Below are positions 34,668 through 41,652 of a stretch of DNA of 64,000 bases, one piece after another. The position numbers and the translations under genes are program-made. Below the pieces are notes generated by a model. That model did not search any database and was not told the DNA's origin. It saw nothing but the letters and a program-made list of their open reading frames with translations. Location: the NCBI RefSeq assembly GCF_002968285.2, contig NZ_CP134400.1, positions 2,046,001-2,110,000 on the forward strand, read 5' to 3'. Within the stretch, counting starts at the first letter, position 1. The number at the start of each line of letters is the position of its first letter. The DNA comes from Mycobacterium sp. ITM-2016-00318 (GTDB taxonomy: Bacteria > Actinomycetota > Actinomycetes > Mycobacteriales > Mycobacteriaceae).

Positions 34668-35479
34668 GCCGGCTGCTTCGACTACTGGAGCTTCACCGTG
34701 GTCCCGACGACGGCACGTGGGTCGGACCGGCCAGCGGCCCGGAAGGCAAGCGCTCCTTCGGCGGTCAGTTCGTCGCGCAGAGCCTGGCCGCCGCCTGCCG
34801 CACCGTCGGATCGGACCGCTCGCCGACCAACATGCACCTTCAGTTCCTGCGCGGTGGGCAGGCAGGCGATCCCGTCGAGTACACGGTCACACCGGTGTTC
34901 GACGGACGGACCGCGGCGGCCCGCCGGATCGACTGCCGCCAGGATGGGCGGCTGCTGACGACGTCGTCGGTGTCCTTCGCGGTGGACCTTGCCGGACCCG
35001 AGCACGGCCGTCGGGATGTCATGCCGGGCGATCCGGATGCGCTGCCGAGGACCGGGCCTGCCGGGCCCGCGCCGTCGATGCCGCTCGACGAGCTGGACAT
35101 CAGGATCGCCGACGACAACAGCGGCCACGAGTTCGTACGGCGGTTCTGGTGGCGGGCAACGGTTCCCATCCCCGACGAGCCGCTCATTCACACGCTGGTC
35201 GCGGTCTATGTCACCGACGTGTACATGATCGACCCCGCGCTGGCTGTGCACGGTCATTCGATGCAGGCAAGGACTCACCGCAGCGGCACCACCGATTCGT
35301 CCATCTGGTTTCACCAGCCGGTGCGCGCCGACGAGTGGAACCTGCTGGAGACCAGGTCGCCTGCCGCCGCGCGTGGACGCGGTGTCGTGACGGGCAGCCT
35401 TGTTCGCGCCGACGGGGTCGTCGCTGCGACGCTGGTTCAGGAAGGGCTCATCGCAGAGCGGGAACCGAAGCCGCAGTAG
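34664..35479 (+). CDS. Acyl-CoA thioesterase II (TesB-like)
   Basis: A 271-residue double hot-dog thioesterase releasing free acids from acyl-CoA. The N-terminal hot-dog shows FGGQFVAQSLAAACRTV and the typical LQFLRGGQAGDPVEY; the second has HGHSM, SSIWFHQPVRADEWNLLE and the terminal ATLVQEGLI, in which the Gln of the D-T-Q active site normally lies. Last gene of the operon; translationally coupled to the Mct-like gene. The 3' end overlaps the convergent adenylation/acyltransferase gene by 32 bp. Confidence 0.9.
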   Translation: MSRLLRLLELHRGPDDGTWVGPASGPEGKRSFGGQFVAQSLAAACRTVGSDRSPTNMHLQFLRGGQAGDPVEYTVTPVFDGRTAAARRIDCRQDGRLLTTSSVSFAVDLAGPEHGRRDVMPGDPDALPRTGPAGPAPSMPLDELDIRIADDNSGHEFVRRFWWRATVPIPDEPLIHTLVAVYVTDVYMIDPALAVHGHSMQARTHRSGTTDSSIWFHQPVRADEWNLLETRSPAAARGRGVVTGSLVRADGVVAATLVQEGLIAEREPKPQ

Positions 35480-37946
35480 CGGCGCCCCGGCTGCGCTCGC
35501 GGATGCGGGTGCGCGTCGCGTTGACCAGTCGGGTGATCAACACCCCAACGACGATCGCGCCGATGACGCCGAGCAGCGGATGGGCATCGAACAACGGGTA
35601 GATCTGGTAGTGCGTCAGGTAGGTGTACAGCGATGCCTCCGCGACGGTTCCCGCCACGGCCGTGCACCATGCCGGGCAGCGGATCGCGGGTAGCCAGATC
35701 AGCAGCAGGAAACCCGCCAGCACCAGCATCTCGCGGTGCGTGTTCTCGAAATAGCCGTACATACTAACGATCAGCACCACCGTCACCAGCAGCCGTTGCC
35801 ACACCGTCGACGACTTCGCCGCCACCCAGCCCACCGCGAAGAACCAGAAGGCCAGGATCGTGAACCACGCCTCGCGACCGAAGTGCAGGCTCAACAGGTC
35901 GTAGCGCACCGCCAGCCCGAAGGCGAGGAAGGCGGCGGCGAAAGCGAACGGCCGTCGACGTTCCAGCCGGTCGGCGGCGGGTAGCCAGACGACAAGGGTC
36001 AGCGCCAGCAGGATCCACACCAGCACCTCGATGAACCACAGGCGGCCTGCGGTCATGCTGTCGTCGGGGCCGAAGAACTTCTCGACCAGGAGCAGATTCG
36101 TCCAGTGGTAGTCGTCGGTGATGACCAGCGCAAGCGCGATCCAGATCGCCGAGGGCACGATGATCCACGTCATCGTCTTGCGTAGGTGTCGGACACGATT
36201 TGCACGAGGAACGGGCGTCAGGCAGAACCGGCCGAAGTTGTAGCCCGCGATCCCCAGCAGGAGGTGCGCGCCGCCCCACATCTCGTAGAGCGTGGCGTGG
36301 GAGCCGACGATCAGCACGATCGCCGCCGCGCGCAGCGCGACGCTGGTTTCCAGCGTCGCGCCGAGCCACGGCCACGACCGGCGGCTCGGCGGTGAGGTGC
36401 GCTCAAGCTCGGCAAGTGGCCGTCGCTGCCAATCCGACGGGAGCCTGCCGAGAGCCCGCTCCAGCCGAACCGACATCGCCACGTAGGACAGGGAATTTCC
36501 GCCGAGGTCGACGAAGCTCTGCTCGGGGCGGATCGTGCCGGCATCGATCTGCAGCACGTCGGCGAACAACGCGCGCAGGTCGCCGGAGGACTTTGCGGTC
36601 TCGCCCGTTCGGTGAGCCTCGTCTCGGATGGCTTGGTAGTCCGGTTTACCCGACGGCAGCAGCGGCAGTTCGGCCATGGAGATCACCCGAACGGCGGTCG
36701 CAGGCAGTCCGGATGCAGCCACCGTAATGCGTTGCACGGCAGCACTCTCACCGCTGACGGCCGCGATCACCAGGCGCTCGTCGTCGTCGACGCAGAACGC
36801 CGTCACGCCTTCTTCGCGCAGCGCGGCCTCCACCCGCTGCAGGTCGATCCGCAATCCGTAGAGCTTGACGAAGCGGCTGCTTCGGCCGATCACCTCGTAG
36901 AGCCCGTCCGGCGCGCGTCGAGCGACGTCGCCGGTGCGCAGCGTGTCGACCGTCTTGCCGAGCGCCAGGTCTGCCGGGCTGTGCGCGTAGCCCATCATGA
37001 CGTTCGGACCCTGGTACACCAGCTCGCCGACGTTTGGTTCGGACCACCCGTCCAGCGGTTCGAGTGAGAATGAGCCGCCGGCGATGGGGCGCCCGATGAA
37101 GGCGGGCTGTGACTCAGCGAGTTCCGGTGGCAGATAGGCCATTCTGGCGGTAGCTTCGGTCGCGCCGTACATGACGAACAGTTGCCAGCCGTTGTTTCGC
37201 CCGAGGGCCGCGAAGCTGCGCACGCGTTCGGGTGGCAGCCTGCCACCGGCCTGGGTGACGTAACGGAGGTCGGGTAGATCGGTGCCGTCGAAGCCGATCC
37301 GGTCGAGCATCTCGAACGTGTAGGGCACGCCGGCGAACGAGGTGCCGTGGTGCTCGCGAAAAACCGACCAGAAGTCGTCGTCGACGACCGAGCGATCGGT
37401 CACGATGAGGCCGGCGCCGCGGATCAGATGACTGTGGACCACAGACAGGCCGTAGCAGTACGACATCGGGAGCGTCGTTGCAGCTCTGTCGATTTCGCTG
37501 ATGTCCAGAAACTCGGCGATCGACTCGGCGTTGGCCACCAGGTTACGGCGCGACAACCTGACCAGTTTCGGCGAGCCGGTGCTGCCCGAGGTCGACAGCA
37601 GCAGCGCCAGGTCAGGGTGCAACCGGTGCGCAGTGCCGTGCCGCCGCTCGTGGAAGCCGCCGCTGTCGACGATGACGTCGGGGTCATAGGCCTGCAGCAC
37701 GGCAGAATGACTGCGGCCGGGAGAAATCGGAAGCACCACGTGATCGCCCGCGAGCGCACCGAGATAGTGCACCAACGTGGTCAGGTCGTTGCGGGTTTCG
37801 ACCATGACCAGCCTGCGGGTCGGACCCAGCATGGCTGCGATGTCAGCCGCCCGGTCGGCGAGTTCACGGTAAGTCAGCGAAGTGGCGTCGGTCAGCACAG
37901 CGACCCCGTCGCCGTGGCTGCGCAGATGGTCGACGAGCAGTGTCAT
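35448..37946 (-). CDS. Adenylation-carrier-acyltransferase 3 membrane fusion protein
   Basis: An 832-residue three-domain protein. Residues 1-450 are an adenylate-forming domain: P-loop STSGSTGSPK (118-127), YGATEATARM, RTGDVARRAPDG, KLYGLRIDLQRVEAAL and the catalytic Lys in LPSGKPDY. A carrier domain follows with DLGGNSLS, the serine near 485 being the phosphopantetheine site. From about 535 to the end is a polytopic membrane domain of acyltransferase-3 type, with the N-terminal LRAAAIVLIVGSHA (candidate catalytic His) and LWFIEVLVWILL. The A domain lacks the FDxS alpha-amino-acid anchor, so a simple carboxylic acid is the likelier substrate. The ATG at 37946 overlaps the ABC ATPase stop (ATGA). 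Confidence 0.85.
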   Translation of the reverse strand: MTLLVDHLRSHGDGVAVLTDATSLTYRELADRAADIAAMLGPTRRLVMVETRNDLTTLVHYLGALAGDHVVLPISPGRSHSAVLQAYDPDVIVDSGGFHERRHGTAHRLHPDLALLLSTSGSTGSPKLVRLSRRNLVANAESIAEFLDISEIDRAATTLPMSYCYGLSVVHSHLIRGAGLIVTDRSVVDDDFWSVFREHHGTSFAGVPYTFEMLDRIGFDGTDLPDLRYVTQAGGRLPPERVRSFAALGRNNGWQLFVMYGATEATARMAYLPPELAESQPAFIGRPIAGGSFSLEPLDGWSEPNVGELVYQGPNVMMGYAHSPADLALGKTVDTLRTGDVARRAPDGLYEVIGRSSRFVKLYGLRIDLQRVEAALREEGVTAFCVDDDERLVIAAVSGESAAVQRITVAASGLPATAVRVISMAELPLLPSGKPDYQAIRDEAHRTGETAKSSGDLRALFADVLQIDAGTIRPEQSFVDLGGNSLSYVAMSVRLERALGRLPSDWQRRPLAELERTSPPSRRSWPWLGATLETSVALRAAAIVLIVGSHATLYEMWGGAHLLLGIAGYNFGRFCLTPVPRANRVRHLRKTMTWIIVPSAIWIALALVITDDYHWTNLLLVEKFFGPDDSMTAGRLWFIEVLVWILLALTLVVWLPAADRLERRRPFAFAAAFLAFGLAVRYDLLSLHFGREAWFTILAFWFFAVGWVAAKSSTVWQRLLVTVVLIVSMYGYFENTHREMLVLAGFLLLIWLPAIRCPAWCTAVAGTVAEASLYTYLTHYQIYPLFDAHPLLGVIGAIVVGVLITRLVNATRTRIRERSRGAATAASVPALR

Positions 37947-39019
37947 CTCAGCACGACCCCGTTGCCGATCACGTCGATTCGCACTTTGGCGTCGATCGGC
38001 GGCGGGTCGAGGCTGTGCTGCCGCACGATGATCGGTGCGATGTCGTCCGCGGGGTCGATCGTCAGGAGCACGTCGTGGCCGAGAAACTCGGTGGCCACCA
38101 CCGTGCCGATGCCGTTGTCGGCTTCCTGTCCTTTGCTGCTCACGTGCGCGGCGCTGTCGGAGATGACCGTCGCCACAAGCTGTTCGGGCCGAAGCGCAAG
38201 CGTGGCGGGCCCGTCGCCGAGCGAGGTCTGCACAGGCACCCCGCCCAGCGCGCAGTGGGCGAAACCGGAGGAGACGGTGCACGGCAGGGCGATGCAGTCG
38301 CCGAGGAACTCGGCGGTGAAGCGGTCGTTGGGCCGGCGGTAGACCTCCTGCGGGGCGCCGACCTGGGTGAAACGTCCGTCGCGCATGACCGCTATCTGGT
38401 CGGCGATCGACAGCGCCTCCTCCTGGTCATGCGTCACCAGCAGCGTCGTCACCCCGGCCTCGGCCAGCAATCGGGCGACCGCTTTGCGGGTCGACGCGCG
38501 CAGTCCGGTGTCCAGCGCGCTGAACGGTTCGTCGAGGAGCATCAGCACCGGCTTGCGCGCCAACGCACGGGCGAGCGCCACGCGCTGCTGCTGACCACCT
38601 GACAACTCATGCGGCTTGCGCGACGCGTATGAGGCGTCAAGGGAGACGGTTTCGAGCAGTTCGGCCACCCGATTGCGAACCTCGCGACTGCGGGCCGAGC
38701 CCGCCAGCCCGTACGCCACGTTCTGTCCGACGGTCAGATGGGGAAACAGCGCACCGTCCTGCGCGACGTAACCGACGCTGCGGCGGTGGGACGCGACCGA
38801 CCGATCGGGGGCTGCCACTTGGCGGTCGGAGATGGTGACCGTTCCGGCGTCGGGGGTCTCGAATCCGGCGACCAGCCGCAGCAGCGTTGTCTTGCCGCAG
38901 CCCGACGATCCGACCACGGCGGTCGTGCTGCCCGCTTCCACATGCAGGTCGATGTGGTCGAGCACCGTGTTGCCGTTGAACGACTTCGCCAGTCCGCGGA
39001 TATCGAGCATGGTGGTCAC
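37943..39019 (-). CDS. fbpC: Ferric iron ABC transporter ATPase (FbpC-like)
   Basis: A 358-residue ABC ATPase of the CUT/Fbp type powering ferric iron uptake. Walker A GSSGCGKT is at 37-44, the signature LSGGQ at 139-143, Walker B LMLLDEP near 159-165, and the switch His in VTHDQEEAL. A C-terminal regulatory beta domain of about 110 residues follows, ending RIDVIGNGVVLR. The GTG start at 39019 overlaps the permease stop (GTGA), and its own stop overlaps the next gene (ATGA), so all are coupled. The metal is inferred from the binding protein and the iron box. Confidence 0.9.
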   Translation of the reverse strand: MTTMLDIRGLAKSFNGNTVLDHIDLHVEAGSTTAVVGSSGCGKTTLLRLVAGFETPDAGTVTISDRQVAAPDRSVASHRRSVGYVAQDGALFPHLTVGQNVAYGLAGSARSREVRNRVAELLETVSLDASYASRKPHELSGGQQQRVALARALARKPVLMLLDEPFSALDTGLRASTRKAVARLLAEAGVTTLLVTHDQEEALSIADQIAVMRDGRFTQVGAPQEVYRRPNDRFTAEFLGDCIALPCTVSSGFAHCALGGVPVQTSLGDGPATLALRPEQLVATVISDSAAHVSSKGQEADNGIGTVVATEFLGHDVLLTIDPADDIAPIIVRQHSLDPPPIDAKVRIDVIGNGVVLR

Positions 39020-40590
39020 AGCGCGGCCACCTTCGTCGACTGCCGGAACAGGATCAATGTCACTGGAATGGCGAGCACCACGAGCGCGAGTGCATACGGT
39101 GCCGCCGACGCGTAGTCCAGCTCGCTGCTGAAGGACCAGAACAGCATCGACAGCGTGCGGGTGCCGGTCGGGGCCAGCAGCAGTGTGGCCGTCAATTCGG
39201 TTGCCACCGCCACGAATACCAGGGATGCGGCCGCGGCCGCGGCGGGTGCCGTGAGCCGAAGGGTGACCCGAAGGAAGGTGGCGCCCGGCGAACGCCCCAG
39301 CGACCGCGACGCCTCCTCGAGGCCCGGCGGCACCTGCGCCAGACCTGCGCGCACATTGACCAGGGCACGCGGCATGAACAACAGAACGTACGCGAAGACG
39401 ATCAGCGGAACGGTTTGATACAGGGGCCGGACGAAGTGGATCGCGACGGTCACCAAGGCGAGCGCGGTGACGATACCGGGCAGGGAGCTGGTGACGTAGT
39501 TGGCGCCCTCCACCGCGCGCGCCAGCACCCCGTTCGACCGGACCGCCACCCATGCGACGGGAAACGCCAGCACCGTCGTCAGCGCCGCCGCGACGCCCGC
39601 CAGCGCGACCGTCTGACCGAGCGCGTTGGCGATCTCGCCGATATCCCACACTCGTGCGCCGCCGATCCACAACCAGCGCATGATGGTCCACACCGGAACG
39701 CCGATCGCCAGCACGGCAAGCATCAACAGGCCTACTGTCGCCGGGATCGTGTTGCGGCCAAGGGCAACCGGCACGGCGGCACGGGGTACGCCCGCGCCGA
39801 TCCTTGCGTACCTTGCCCGACCGCGCGCGGCGGCTTCGGCGATCAGCAGCACCAGGCACAGCAGCACGAGCACGCCCGCCAGCATGCTGCCCGCGGCTCC
39901 GTCGAAGGTGACCTGGAACTGTTGGAAGATGGCGACGGTGAAGGTGTCGAACCGGACCATGGCGAACGCGCCGTACTCGGCGAGCAGATGGACGCCGATC
40001 AGCAGCGCGCCGCCGAGGATCGCCAACCGCAACTGCGGCAGCACCACCCGGAAGAACACACCGGCGGTATCTGATCCGAGCGTGCGCGCTGATTCTTCGA
40101 CGGCCGGGTCGAGCCTGCGCAGCGTCGCGGCGACGGGCAGATACATGAACGGGAAATACGACAGCGTCGTGATCAACACACCCGCCCACAAACCGTTCAT
40201 CGACGGGATCGCGGCCACCCACGCATAGCTGTTGACGAAGGCCGGAACCGCTAGCGGCGCAACGAACAACGGGCGCCAGAACGCCCGGCCCGGCAGGTCG
40301 CTGCGCTCAACGAGCCACGCCACCCCGACGCCGATCACCACACACAGCGGCACGGTCACCACCACAAGGGCGACGGTGTTGACGAGCAGCTCGGCGACAC
40401 GAGGGCGGACAACCAGTTCGTAGGCGCGGGTCCAGCCGACGTCGATCGCGCCCCAGACCACGTAACCCAGCGGGATCGCCGTGGTGGCGACCAGGAGCGC
40501 GACCGTGGCCGACACCAGCGGACCGGGACGGGCGCCCGGATCCGACCGCGGAGCCGGTGCCGCGGGGCGCGAGACTGGGGGAGCGACCAC
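39016..40590 (-). CDS. fbpB: Ferric iron ABC transporter permease (FbpB-like)
   Basis: A 524-residue permease made of two fused halves with about 12 membrane helices. Each half carries an EAA coupling loop: EESARTLGSDTAGVFFRVVLP (about 165-185) and EEASRSLGRSPGATFLRVTL (about 435-455). This duplicated layout is characteristic of FbpB/SfuB/ThiP permeases. A Pro-rich cytosolic N-terminus precedes the first helix. The GTG start at 40590 abuts the stop of the binding-protein gene. Works with the FbpC ATPase and the lipoprotein encoded on either side. Confidence 0.9.
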   Translation of the reverse strand: MVAPPVSRPAAPAPRSDPGARPGPLVSATVALLVATTAIPLGYVVWGAIDVGWTRAYELVVRPRVAELLVNTVALVVVTVPLCVVIGVGVAWLVERSDLPGRAFWRPLFVAPLAVPAFVNSYAWVAAIPSMNGLWAGVLITTLSYFPFMYLPVAATLRRLDPAVEESARTLGSDTAGVFFRVVLPQLRLAILGGALLIGVHLLAEYGAFAMVRFDTFTVAIFQQFQVTFDGAAGSMLAGVLVLLCLVLLIAEAAARGRARYARIGAGVPRAAVPVALGRNTIPATVGLLMLAVLAIGVPVWTIMRWLWIGGARVWDIGEIANALGQTVALAGVAAALTTVLAFPVAWVAVRSNGVLARAVEGANYVTSSLPGIVTALALVTVAIHFVRPLYQTVPLIVFAYVLLFMPRALVNVRAGLAQVPPGLEEASRSLGRSPGATFLRVTLRLTAPAAAAAASLVFVAVATELTATLLLAPTGTRTLSMLFWSFSSELDYASAAPYALALVVLAIPVTLILFRQSTKVAAL

Positions 40591-41604
40591 CTACAGCAGG
40601 CCCGCCTTCGTCATCAGATCGTTCACCTTCTGCGCATCCAGTGTCGACGGGTCGACCTTCGGCGCCTGCAACGAATCAAGGGGCGGCAGAGCGGAGTTCG
40701 CAGGCACGCCGCTGGCCACCGGATACTCGAACGAGGTGCCCTTCTCCAGGACTTCCTGGCCGGCCTTGCCCGTGACGAACTTGACGAACTGCTGTGCCTG
40801 CTCGGCCTTCTCGCTCGACTTCAGCACACCGCCGCCGGACAGGCTGACGAACGCGCCCGGGTCCTCGTTCTTGAAGTAGTGCAACGCCGTATTGCCGCTG
40901 CCCTCTTTGGTATTGGCCTGATCGCGGAACCAGTAGTAGTGGTAGATGATGCCGCCGTCGACTTCACCCGCATTGACGGCCTTCATCGTCGCGATGTTGT
41001 CGTTGTAGATCGTGGCGTTGGCCTTCATGCCCGCCAGCCATTGCGCGGTCCCGGCTTCGCCCTTCAGCTGCAGGTACGCCGCGACGATGGCCTGGAAATC
41101 CGCCTTGGCCGGCGCGCCGCCCCAGCGCCCCTTCCAGGCGGGCTGCTGCAGGTCTGCCATCGACTTCGGCAACTGATCGGGCGTCAGCCTGGTCTTGTTG
41201 TAGACGAACACGGTGCTGCGCGCGGCCACCCCGGTCCATTTGCCGGTGGCGGGCCGGTAGGAGCCCGGAACCTGATCGAGGGTGTCGCGGTTGACGTCGG
41301 CGAACAGGCCCGCCTTCTCAACGGCCGCCATGGCGGGGGAGTTCTCGGTCAAGAAGACGTCGGCGGGTGAGGCATCACCCTCGGCGACCAGTTGATTACC
41401 CAGCTCGGTGTCGCCGCCCTGCCGGTAAGTGACCTTGATGCCGGTCTCCTTGGTGAAGGCGTCGATCCATTCCTTGGTCAGGGATTCGTGCTGAGCGTTG
41501 TAAATGAGCAGATCGTCGCCCTCACCCGAGCTCGAACAAGCGGTCATTGCGAGCACGACGGCGAGCGTCGTCACGAGTGCGGCGAGCCGGCTCTGGGGTC
41601 GCAT
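40591..41604 (-). CDS. fbpA: Ferric iron-binding lipoprotein (FbpA-like)
   Basis: A 337-residue class II periplasmic-binding-type protein anchored by a lipobox (AMTAC, Cys23). The mature part starts DDLLIYNAQHESLTKEW, as in ferric-binding proteins, and has the tandem tyrosines typical of iron coordination in IIYHYYWF near residue 224. The VFVYNKTRL and PAWKGRWGG segments are also family-typical. I choose the ATG at 41604 over 41622 for signal-peptide quality. An IdeR-like box lies 30 bases upstream. Other ABC substrates (thiamine, phosphonate) are less likely given the YY motif and iron box. First gene of the operon. Confidence 0.9.
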   Translation of the reverse strand: MRPQSRLAALVTTLAVVLAMTACSSSGEGDDLLIYNAQHESLTKEWIDAFTKETGIKVTYRQGGDTELGNQLVAEGDASPADVFLTENSPAMAAVEKAGLFADVNRDTLDQVPGSYRPATGKWTGVAARSTVFVYNKTRLTPDQLPKSMADLQQPAWKGRWGGAPAKADFQAIVAAYLQLKGEAGTAQWLAGMKANATIYNDNIATMKAVNAGEVDGGIIYHYYWFRDQANTKEGSGNTALHYFKNEDPGAFVSLSGGGVLKSSEKAEQAQQFVKFVTGKAGQEVLEKGTSFEYPVASGVPANSALPPLDSLQAPKVDPSTLDAQKVNDLMTKAGLL

Positions 41605-41633
41605 CCAGCGTCCCTTCCGCACCTGACGGCGCT

Positions 41634-41652
41634 TTAGCTGAGGTTTACCTAA
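41634..41652. promoter_or_regulatory. IdeR/DtxR-type iron box
   Basis: TTAGCTGAGGTTTACCTAA matches the 19-bp mycobacterial iron box (TTAGGTTAGGCTAACCTAA) at 15 of 19 positions, including the terminal half-sites TTAG and ACCTAA. It is 30 bp upstream of the iron-binding lipoprotein start and overlaps the expected promoter, so iron-loaded IdeR should repress the operon. Confidence 0.75.

Follow-up and report, generated by a model that had tools for sequence, protein, structure and literature searches.

A ferric importer operon of Mycobacterium carrying an adenylation-carrier-acyltransferase fusion as an apparent partner in iron acquisition

The window analyzed here, a 64-kb stretch of the Mycobacterium sp. 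ITM-2016-00318 genome (contig NZ_CP134400.1, positions 2,046,001 to 2,110,000), contains four open reading frames that follow one another on the minus strand, stop to start and without gaps. Three are the genes of a predicted ferric ATP-binding cassette (ABC) importer, fbpA, fbpB and fbpC, and the fourth encodes an 832-residue fusion in which an adenylation (A) domain, a carrier domain and a predicted AT3 membrane acyltransferase domain are joined (Table 1). The GTG of fbpB (40590) begins at the base right after the fbpA stop, the GTG of fbpC (39019) overlaps the fbpB stop as GTGA, and the ATG of the fusion (37946) overlaps the fbpC stop as ATGA. A preliminary description of this DNA had proposed that the four genes are coupled in this way, and the junctions are as it gave them. 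In 22 relatives in which the genes are linked, fbpC and the fusion share 4 nt in 15 cases and 1 nt in 4, and in the other 3 the fusion start was called 44 nt downstream; the neighbor maps and control genes used throughout come from a simple codon-usage gene caller with approximate start sites.

Table 1. Features of the fbpABC-fusion operon, in positions of the window
Feature	Position	Strand	Remarks
fbpA	41622-40591	-	GTG start; lipobox Cys29; solute-binding protein (SBP) domains (Pfam); predicted lipoprotein Fe(III)-binding protein
fbpB	40590-39016	-	double permease; BPD_transp_1, two stretches (Pfam)
fbpC	39019-37943	-	ATPase; ABC_tran 3e-37; weak TOBE domain, TOBE_2 3e-4 (Pfam)
adenylation-carrier-AT3 membrane fusion, 832 aa	37946-35448	-	ATG start; stop ends at 35448
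adenylation domain, about residues 1-445	36612..37946	-	Gly166 and Lys434 in 26/26 aligned rows
carrier domain with phosphopantetheine serine Ser485	36411..36578	-	PP-binding; Ser in 26/26 aligned proteins
AT3 acyltransferase membrane domain with Arg539-X10-His550	35532..36350	-	R and H in 24/24 AT3 rows
IdeR/DtxR-type iron box TTAGGTAAACCTCAGCTAA	41634..41652	.	ends 11 nt before fbpA GTG

The importer half is of a known kind, the SfuABC/YfuABC/FbpABC type, and its binding and uptake of Fe(III) are predicted from that likeness. The solved structures closest to FbpA by phmmer are YfuA (1xvx, E = 3e-125) and SfuA (1xvy, 1e-122), and chain 1d9v, an H. influenzae-type FbpA, matches at 4e-57. The motifs YNAQHE and LTENSP and the Tyr-Tyr of YHYYW line up with YfuA and SfuA in alignments; the candidate Fe(III) ligands are presumably His45, Glu93, Tyr229 and Tyr230, their roles being taken from the FbpA literature. 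The double permease and the ATPase share one operon with FbpA, as in SfuABC and FbpABC importers. The proposal of a ferric ABC importer thus holds, while the idea that such an importer is new to mycobacteria has to be corrected. M. smegmatis MSMEG_3633-3636 is reported to support siderophore-independent growth at low iron, and deletion of the permease gene msmeg_3635 impairs low-iron growth if both siderophores are absent (PMC6684656). In another report, msmeg_3635 and msmeg_3636 go up under citrate (PMC10597346). MSMEG_3633-3636 is, like the operon studied here, an importer of the SfuABC/YfuABC/FbpABC type; it differs in being described as a three-gene operon without an acyltransferase (PMC6684656).

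The box in front of fbpA fits 16 of the 19 positions of TWAGGTWAGSCTWACCTWA, the 19-bp W-degenerate consensus on which IdeR/DtxR boxes were scored here; the strict form is TTAGGTTAGSCTAACCTAA, and the IdeR box consensus is given in PMC10317159. Allowing up to 3 mismatches, the strict consensus has no site in the 64-kb window. The degenerate form has four in the whole 5.46 Mb genome, the fbpA box included, against one for a reversed-pattern control. That the scan picks up iron genes is shown by one of the remaining three, which sits immediately ahead of a gene for a siderophore-interacting protein. All 21 scored relatives in which fbpA leads the operon have a box of 14-16/19 in front of it, and four of four further ones have a box of at least 14. 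The IdeR-like box that had been proposed at this position therefore stands in its degenerate form, conserved in relatives, and is missed by the strict form at this stringency.

Small genes divergent to fbpA in relatives fall into a 17-member cluster, of which 8 score at least 15 for the shared iron box, and a small gene so placed (L037:5776-6126) encodes a haemophore-type MHB protein (PF16525). In the window, merely 193 nt separate the box from the next gene, leaving no room for a divergent small gene.

The domain order proposed for the fusion is borne out by Pfam, which matches it to AMP-binding (5.5e-40), PP-binding (5.4e-9) and Acyl_transf_3 (1.9e-7). The last match (PF01757) reaches 30.9 bits, just below the curated cut-off of 31. 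Among seven homologues of the same layout, four pass this cut-off (L059, L061, L066 and L069; 34.5-49 bits), L033 scores 28.5 bits, and L027 and L072 give no match at 1e-3. Pfam gives the A, carrier and AT3 domains only, and neither a condensation nor an IucA/IucC domain is found in the protein. Ser485 of the carrier, Lys434 of the A domain, Gly166 and Arg268 are invariant in 26 of 26 aligned homologues. Arg539 and His550, the R-X10-H pair that marks the first helix of AT3 proteins, are kept in 25 of these, the exception being the SGNH-type protein L064 of Photobacterium, and are invariant in all 24 rows of an alignment restricted to AT3. AlphaFold models of the fusion have a mean pLDDT of 84; the modeled A part resembles many A-domain structures, and the top PDB match of the modeled AT3 part, HGSNAT, is weak (probability 0.97, E 0.12).

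The nature of Gly166 bears on the substrate. In the A domains of nonribosomal peptide synthetases (NRPS) and of DltA, an Asp holds the alpha-amino group of the substrate. Alignment to LgrA places Gly166 in the column of this Asp, in 26 of 26 rows, and this replacement makes an alpha-amino acid an unlikely substrate. An oxalate- or malonate-type substrate was considered as well, since the closest enzymes of solved structure include oxalate, malonate and succinylbenzoate ligases; the alignments gave no acid-fixing pocket. A review of AT3 proteins names an R/K-X10-H motif and a C-terminal SGNH domain as the commonest fusion partner, and has carbohydrate acylation as its subject; the term AMP-binding has zero occurrences in the text examined (PMC9558356). 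Among the matches listed in the open-licence literature, judged by title and abstract opening, none deals with a fusion of A, carrier and AT3 domains paired with a ferric importer. In the fusion, a known importer has a conserved partner that apparently has not been described before.

The partnership is most visible in genome tallies. Across 396 genomes of the genus (fusion at E up to 1e-100, FbpA at E up to 1e-40), the fusion occurs in 153 and FbpA in 173; both are present in 149, the fusion only in 4, FbpA only in 24 and neither in 219. FbpA thus accompanies 149 of 153 fusion carriers versus 24 of 243 non-carriers (Fisher 7e-77, uncorrected for phylogeny), and the four fusion-only genomes (G252, G315, G328 and G414) are drafts, 80-92% complete. 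Among 190 genomes of the order (fusion at E up to 1e-90), FbpA is found in 25 of 25 carriers and in 33 of 165 others (Fisher 2e-15), or, with the genus left out, in 17 of 17 and 31 of 153 (Fisher 4e-11), both values again uncorrected for phylogeny. The order carriers are spread over 9 genera and 7 families.

Physical linkage follows the same pattern without being uniform. Of the 150 listed genus copies of the fusion, at least 112 are no more than 7 kb from an FbpA gene on their own strand, and FbpA is present even in genomes whose copies are unlinked. The refuting condition set in the preliminary description, a fusion gene usually unlinked to fbpABC, does not hold. Where fbpABC is missing from its usual place, the fusion is often found at the same syntenic position (e.g. 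L044-L047, L050 and L062). The pair occurs in four gene orders. Mycobacteria have fbpABC-fusion, and G076 and G442 have fusion-fbpABC; in G466 and G544 the two diverge from a shared intergenic region, and in two Agromyces they converge. An FbpABC of a second type (type 2), with an FbpA about 40% identical, stands ahead of the fusion in G014 and G052 too, and in G486 the fbpABC-fusion order is formed with a distant FbpABC. In the metagenome-assembled genome WOFB04 the fusion gene is broken into two frames (L060:10049-12710), and in Mycobacterium sp. PO1 a manganese/zinc-type ABC importer follows the operon on the same strand (L052:12609-15147).

When the two genes lie apart, each tends to carry an iron box of its own. 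Within the genus, 28 of the 38 unlinked listed fusion copies were scored, many of them near relatives whose boxes are not independent; a box of at least 13/19 precedes 21 of the 28, whereas in these stretches 6 of 127 other genes reach that score (Fisher 5e-15). Unlinked type-2 fbpABC operons of the genus score 14-16 in 8 of 8 scored cases. The 17 carriers outside the genus behave alike: fusions that lead their transcript score 14-17 in 12 of 12 newly examined cases, those of G076, G066 and G080 score 16, 14 and 14, the fusion of G486 is internal to an operon with a box of 17 at its fbpA, and that of G542 begins at a contig edge and was left unscored. Unlinked fbpABC operons outside the genus score 15-18 in 7 of 7 cases, and other genes reach 14 in 7 of 44. 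Some of the control genes used in these comparisons may owe their box to an fbpA or fusion divergent from them. In Agromyces, one box precedes the fusion and another precedes fbpA. Co-occurrence, arrangement and separate boxes together indicate that the fusion and FbpABC are very probably partners in one iron regulon. The joint task that the preliminary description had suggested for the enzyme and the importer is supported by the same three lines of evidence.

Other genes were seen beside iron boxes. In the genome that holds the window, a 273-aa protein with no Pfam or NCBIfam match (L092:7923-8744) is flanked by iron boxes, one ahead of its start and one at its end, and its gene adjoins a thioesterase gene and genes judged urease-like by reading the sequence. 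In the same genome a sulfatase gene follows the iron-boxed siderophore-interacting protein gene (L093:3906-7163), and in M. wolinskyi a related sulfatase is divergent from a lone fusion (L043:7486-9828).

Relatives outside Actinobacteria suggest where the enzyme came from and what it does. At 15 non-actinobacterial A-carrier loci no FbpA match was found nearby, some of the stretches being short and Fur boxes not having been searched; the IdeR consensus scores 10-13 on most of these loci and 15 on one from Photobacterium. In Catenovulum, an unfused A-carrier protein is found in a polysaccharide locus with a flippase, a polymerase, a glycosyltransferase and a separate AT3. At two Photobacterium loci the A-carrier part is fused to a GDSL/SGNH domain and followed by an MBOAT gene; in one of these proteins (L064) the carrier is visible in the alignment and has no Pfam match. 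An A-only relative (L073) is found with a carrier, a ketoreductase, LuxE and LuxC. The polysaccharide locus and the MBOAT neighbors suggest that the fusion is likely to acylate a glycan or small molecule that is exported. The lack of FbpA at all 15 loci makes the iron role look like a later recruitment, and the parts look like a transmembrane acylation device taken into iron acquisition in Actinobacteria.

The fusion also shows a relation to mycobactin synthesis. An MbtI-type salicylate synthase scores above its cut-off in 210 of the 396 genus genomes, in 32 of 153 fusion carriers versus 178 of 243 non-carriers. Put the other way, the fusion is present in 121 of 186 genomes without the synthase versus 32 of 210 with it (Fisher 5e-25). 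The genome that holds the window has no such synthase over the cut-off (best match 1.7e-48, 166 bits against 325), no IucA/IucC match at 1e-20, and just two NRPS condensation domains, in one NRPS locus that has no iron box of 14 or more. A scan for PF13434 hydroxylases was not used as evidence of mycobactin loss, since it also misses genomes with the salicylate synthase (e.g. G001 and G006) and is uninformative on MbtG. The lack of the synthase in most carriers, together with the mere two condensation domains found here, makes the module a possible substitute for mycobactin. A further 65 of the 396 genomes have neither synthase nor fusion, and their iron acquisition is explained by neither.

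Ferric importers that work without siderophores are generally regarded as taking up bare Fe(III), an ion of very low solubility. The best explanation of the operon, held at even confidence, is an iron-starvation module composed of a ferric importer and a dedicated transmembrane acylation enzyme. On sequence comparison, an iron-sensing repressor would release the operon through the IdeR/DtxR-type operator under iron limitation, FbpA would capture Fe(III) and FbpBC would import it, and the fusion is kept with FbpABC as a functional pair. To judge from its domains, the enzyme would adenylate a non-alpha-amino carboxylic acid with its A domain and load its own carrier at Ser485, and the AT3 domain would pass the acid through the membrane to an outside acceptor; that the fusion acylates something outside the inner membrane is a fairly confident part of this explanation. 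The last steps are the least certain. The acceptor would be a glycan or glycolipid exported to the envelope, or else a small sugar-like molecule that is exported; the added acyl groups would gather Fe(III) near FbpA and stand in for mycobactin, an envelope chelator that most carriers may lack. That the product helps to gather Fe(III) for FbpA, whether envelope-bound or diffusible, is slightly favored. The specific form in which a chelating acid on an outer envelope glycan acts as a cell-bound ferric trap feeding FbpABC, a wall siderophore that replaces mycobactin, is a tentative suggestion.

Several observations weigh against this explanation. The genome tallies ignore phylogeny, and 7 of the 28 lone genus fusions score just 9-11, in a set where near relatives make the boxes non-independent. 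FbpABC occurs without the fusion in the 24 FbpA-only genomes of the genus (G297 ends at a contig edge), and the M. smegmatis importer is described as a three-gene operon (PMC6684656). Near the 15 non-actinobacterial loci no FbpA match was found, Fur boxes there not having been searched. The fusion of G066 is located in an apparent polyketide cluster, and neighbor maps of the mycobacterial operons show no adjoining glycan gene. The AT3 review favors acyl-CoA and not a carrier protein as the donor (PMC9558356). Lack of an MbtI-type salicylate synthase is only a proxy for absence of mycobactin: one paper reports a mycobactin-like cluster for all 73 genomes it studied (PMC10517868), and in another M. 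porcinum is without mbtI though other mbt genes are present (PMC10667711). As read by eye, the G066 cluster (L099:1-8848) appears to be a polyketide cluster with a fatty acyl-AMP ligase (FAAL)-carrier-ketosynthase (KS)-acyltransferase (AT) protein, a reductase, a thioesterase and a carrier.

The same co-occurrence and iron-box data fit a fusion that makes a small diffusible chelator, in which a chelating acid is joined as an ester or amide to an exported small acceptor and the ferric complex feeds FbpA. Also in its favor, carriers tend to be without salicylate synthase, and the genome that holds the window has no IucA/IucC match at 1e-20 and just two condensation domains, in a single NRPS locus unboxed at 14. 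The operon, however, is without a tailoring enzyme, an exporter or a ligand-making gene, and proteins of the SfuA/FbpA type are known binders of bare Fe(III). The AT3 review concerns carbohydrate acylation (PMC9558356). A diffusible chelator is a less likely reading. Alternatively, the fusion could remodel the envelope in iron starvation, altering its charge or permeability, with no iron capture and in mere co-regulation with the importer. Pfam assignments at the three non-actinobacterial loci of Catenovulum and Photobacterium suggest envelope or polysaccharide acylation, and some fusion loci have no fbpABC alongside; a general starvation gene, however, needs no FbpA in 149 of 153 genus carriers and 25 of 25 order carriers, nor four gene orders with it, which makes pure remodeling unlikely.

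Acylation of a lipid-type siderophore, or of the FbpA lipoprotein itself, is very improbable: PMC2170428 mentions that mycobactins presumably receive their acyl groups through dedicated genes that respond to iron, but this genome has just two condensation domains and no salicylate synthase over the cut-off, and the parts of the AT3 literature examined hold no lipoprotein-modifying AT3. A chance neighborhood, in which linkage is inherited gene order only, has in its favor that most linked copies belong to one genus with shared flanking genes, and is scarcely credible given that the fusion and FbpA occur together even when unlinked, that separate boxes are found, and that other families and Agromyces show several orders.

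A comparison of the proposed module with known systems shows how familiar parts are combined. The Dlt system consists of the ligase DltA, the carrier DltC, the MBOAT protein DltB, and DltD. The fusion resembles it in predicted cytoplasmic activation, carrier loading and transfer across the membrane, and the Photobacterium L064 locus, A-carrier-SGNH plus MBOAT, is alike as well. The fusion differs in being one polypeptide, in using AT3 and not MBOAT, in its iron-type box and in Gly166, which speaks against an amino acid. With the mycobactin system the module would share iron-regulated, envelope-associated iron acquisition in mycobacteria, whereas the genome that holds the window has no salicylate synthase over the cut-off and just two condensation domains. 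Among AT3 acyltransferases, of which mycobacterial SucT is one, OafB and OatA have an AT3 membrane domain with R-X10-H, as is predicted for the fusion. According to the review, the commonest fusion partner is a C-terminal SGNH domain and the proposed donor acyl-CoA, whereas the fusion has an N-terminal adenylation and carrier donor module (PMC9558356).

An enzyme found in these genomes almost only with a ferric importer, and with the same type of box, points to a missing step in Fe(III) supply, namely how iron reaches such importers across the mycobacterial outer membrane. Many bacteria retain the enzyme along with the importer, and its probable role is therefore to aid iron collection. It would give the AT3 family a form fed by a carrier and could show how mycobacteria without a mycobactin-type salicylate synthase obtain iron.

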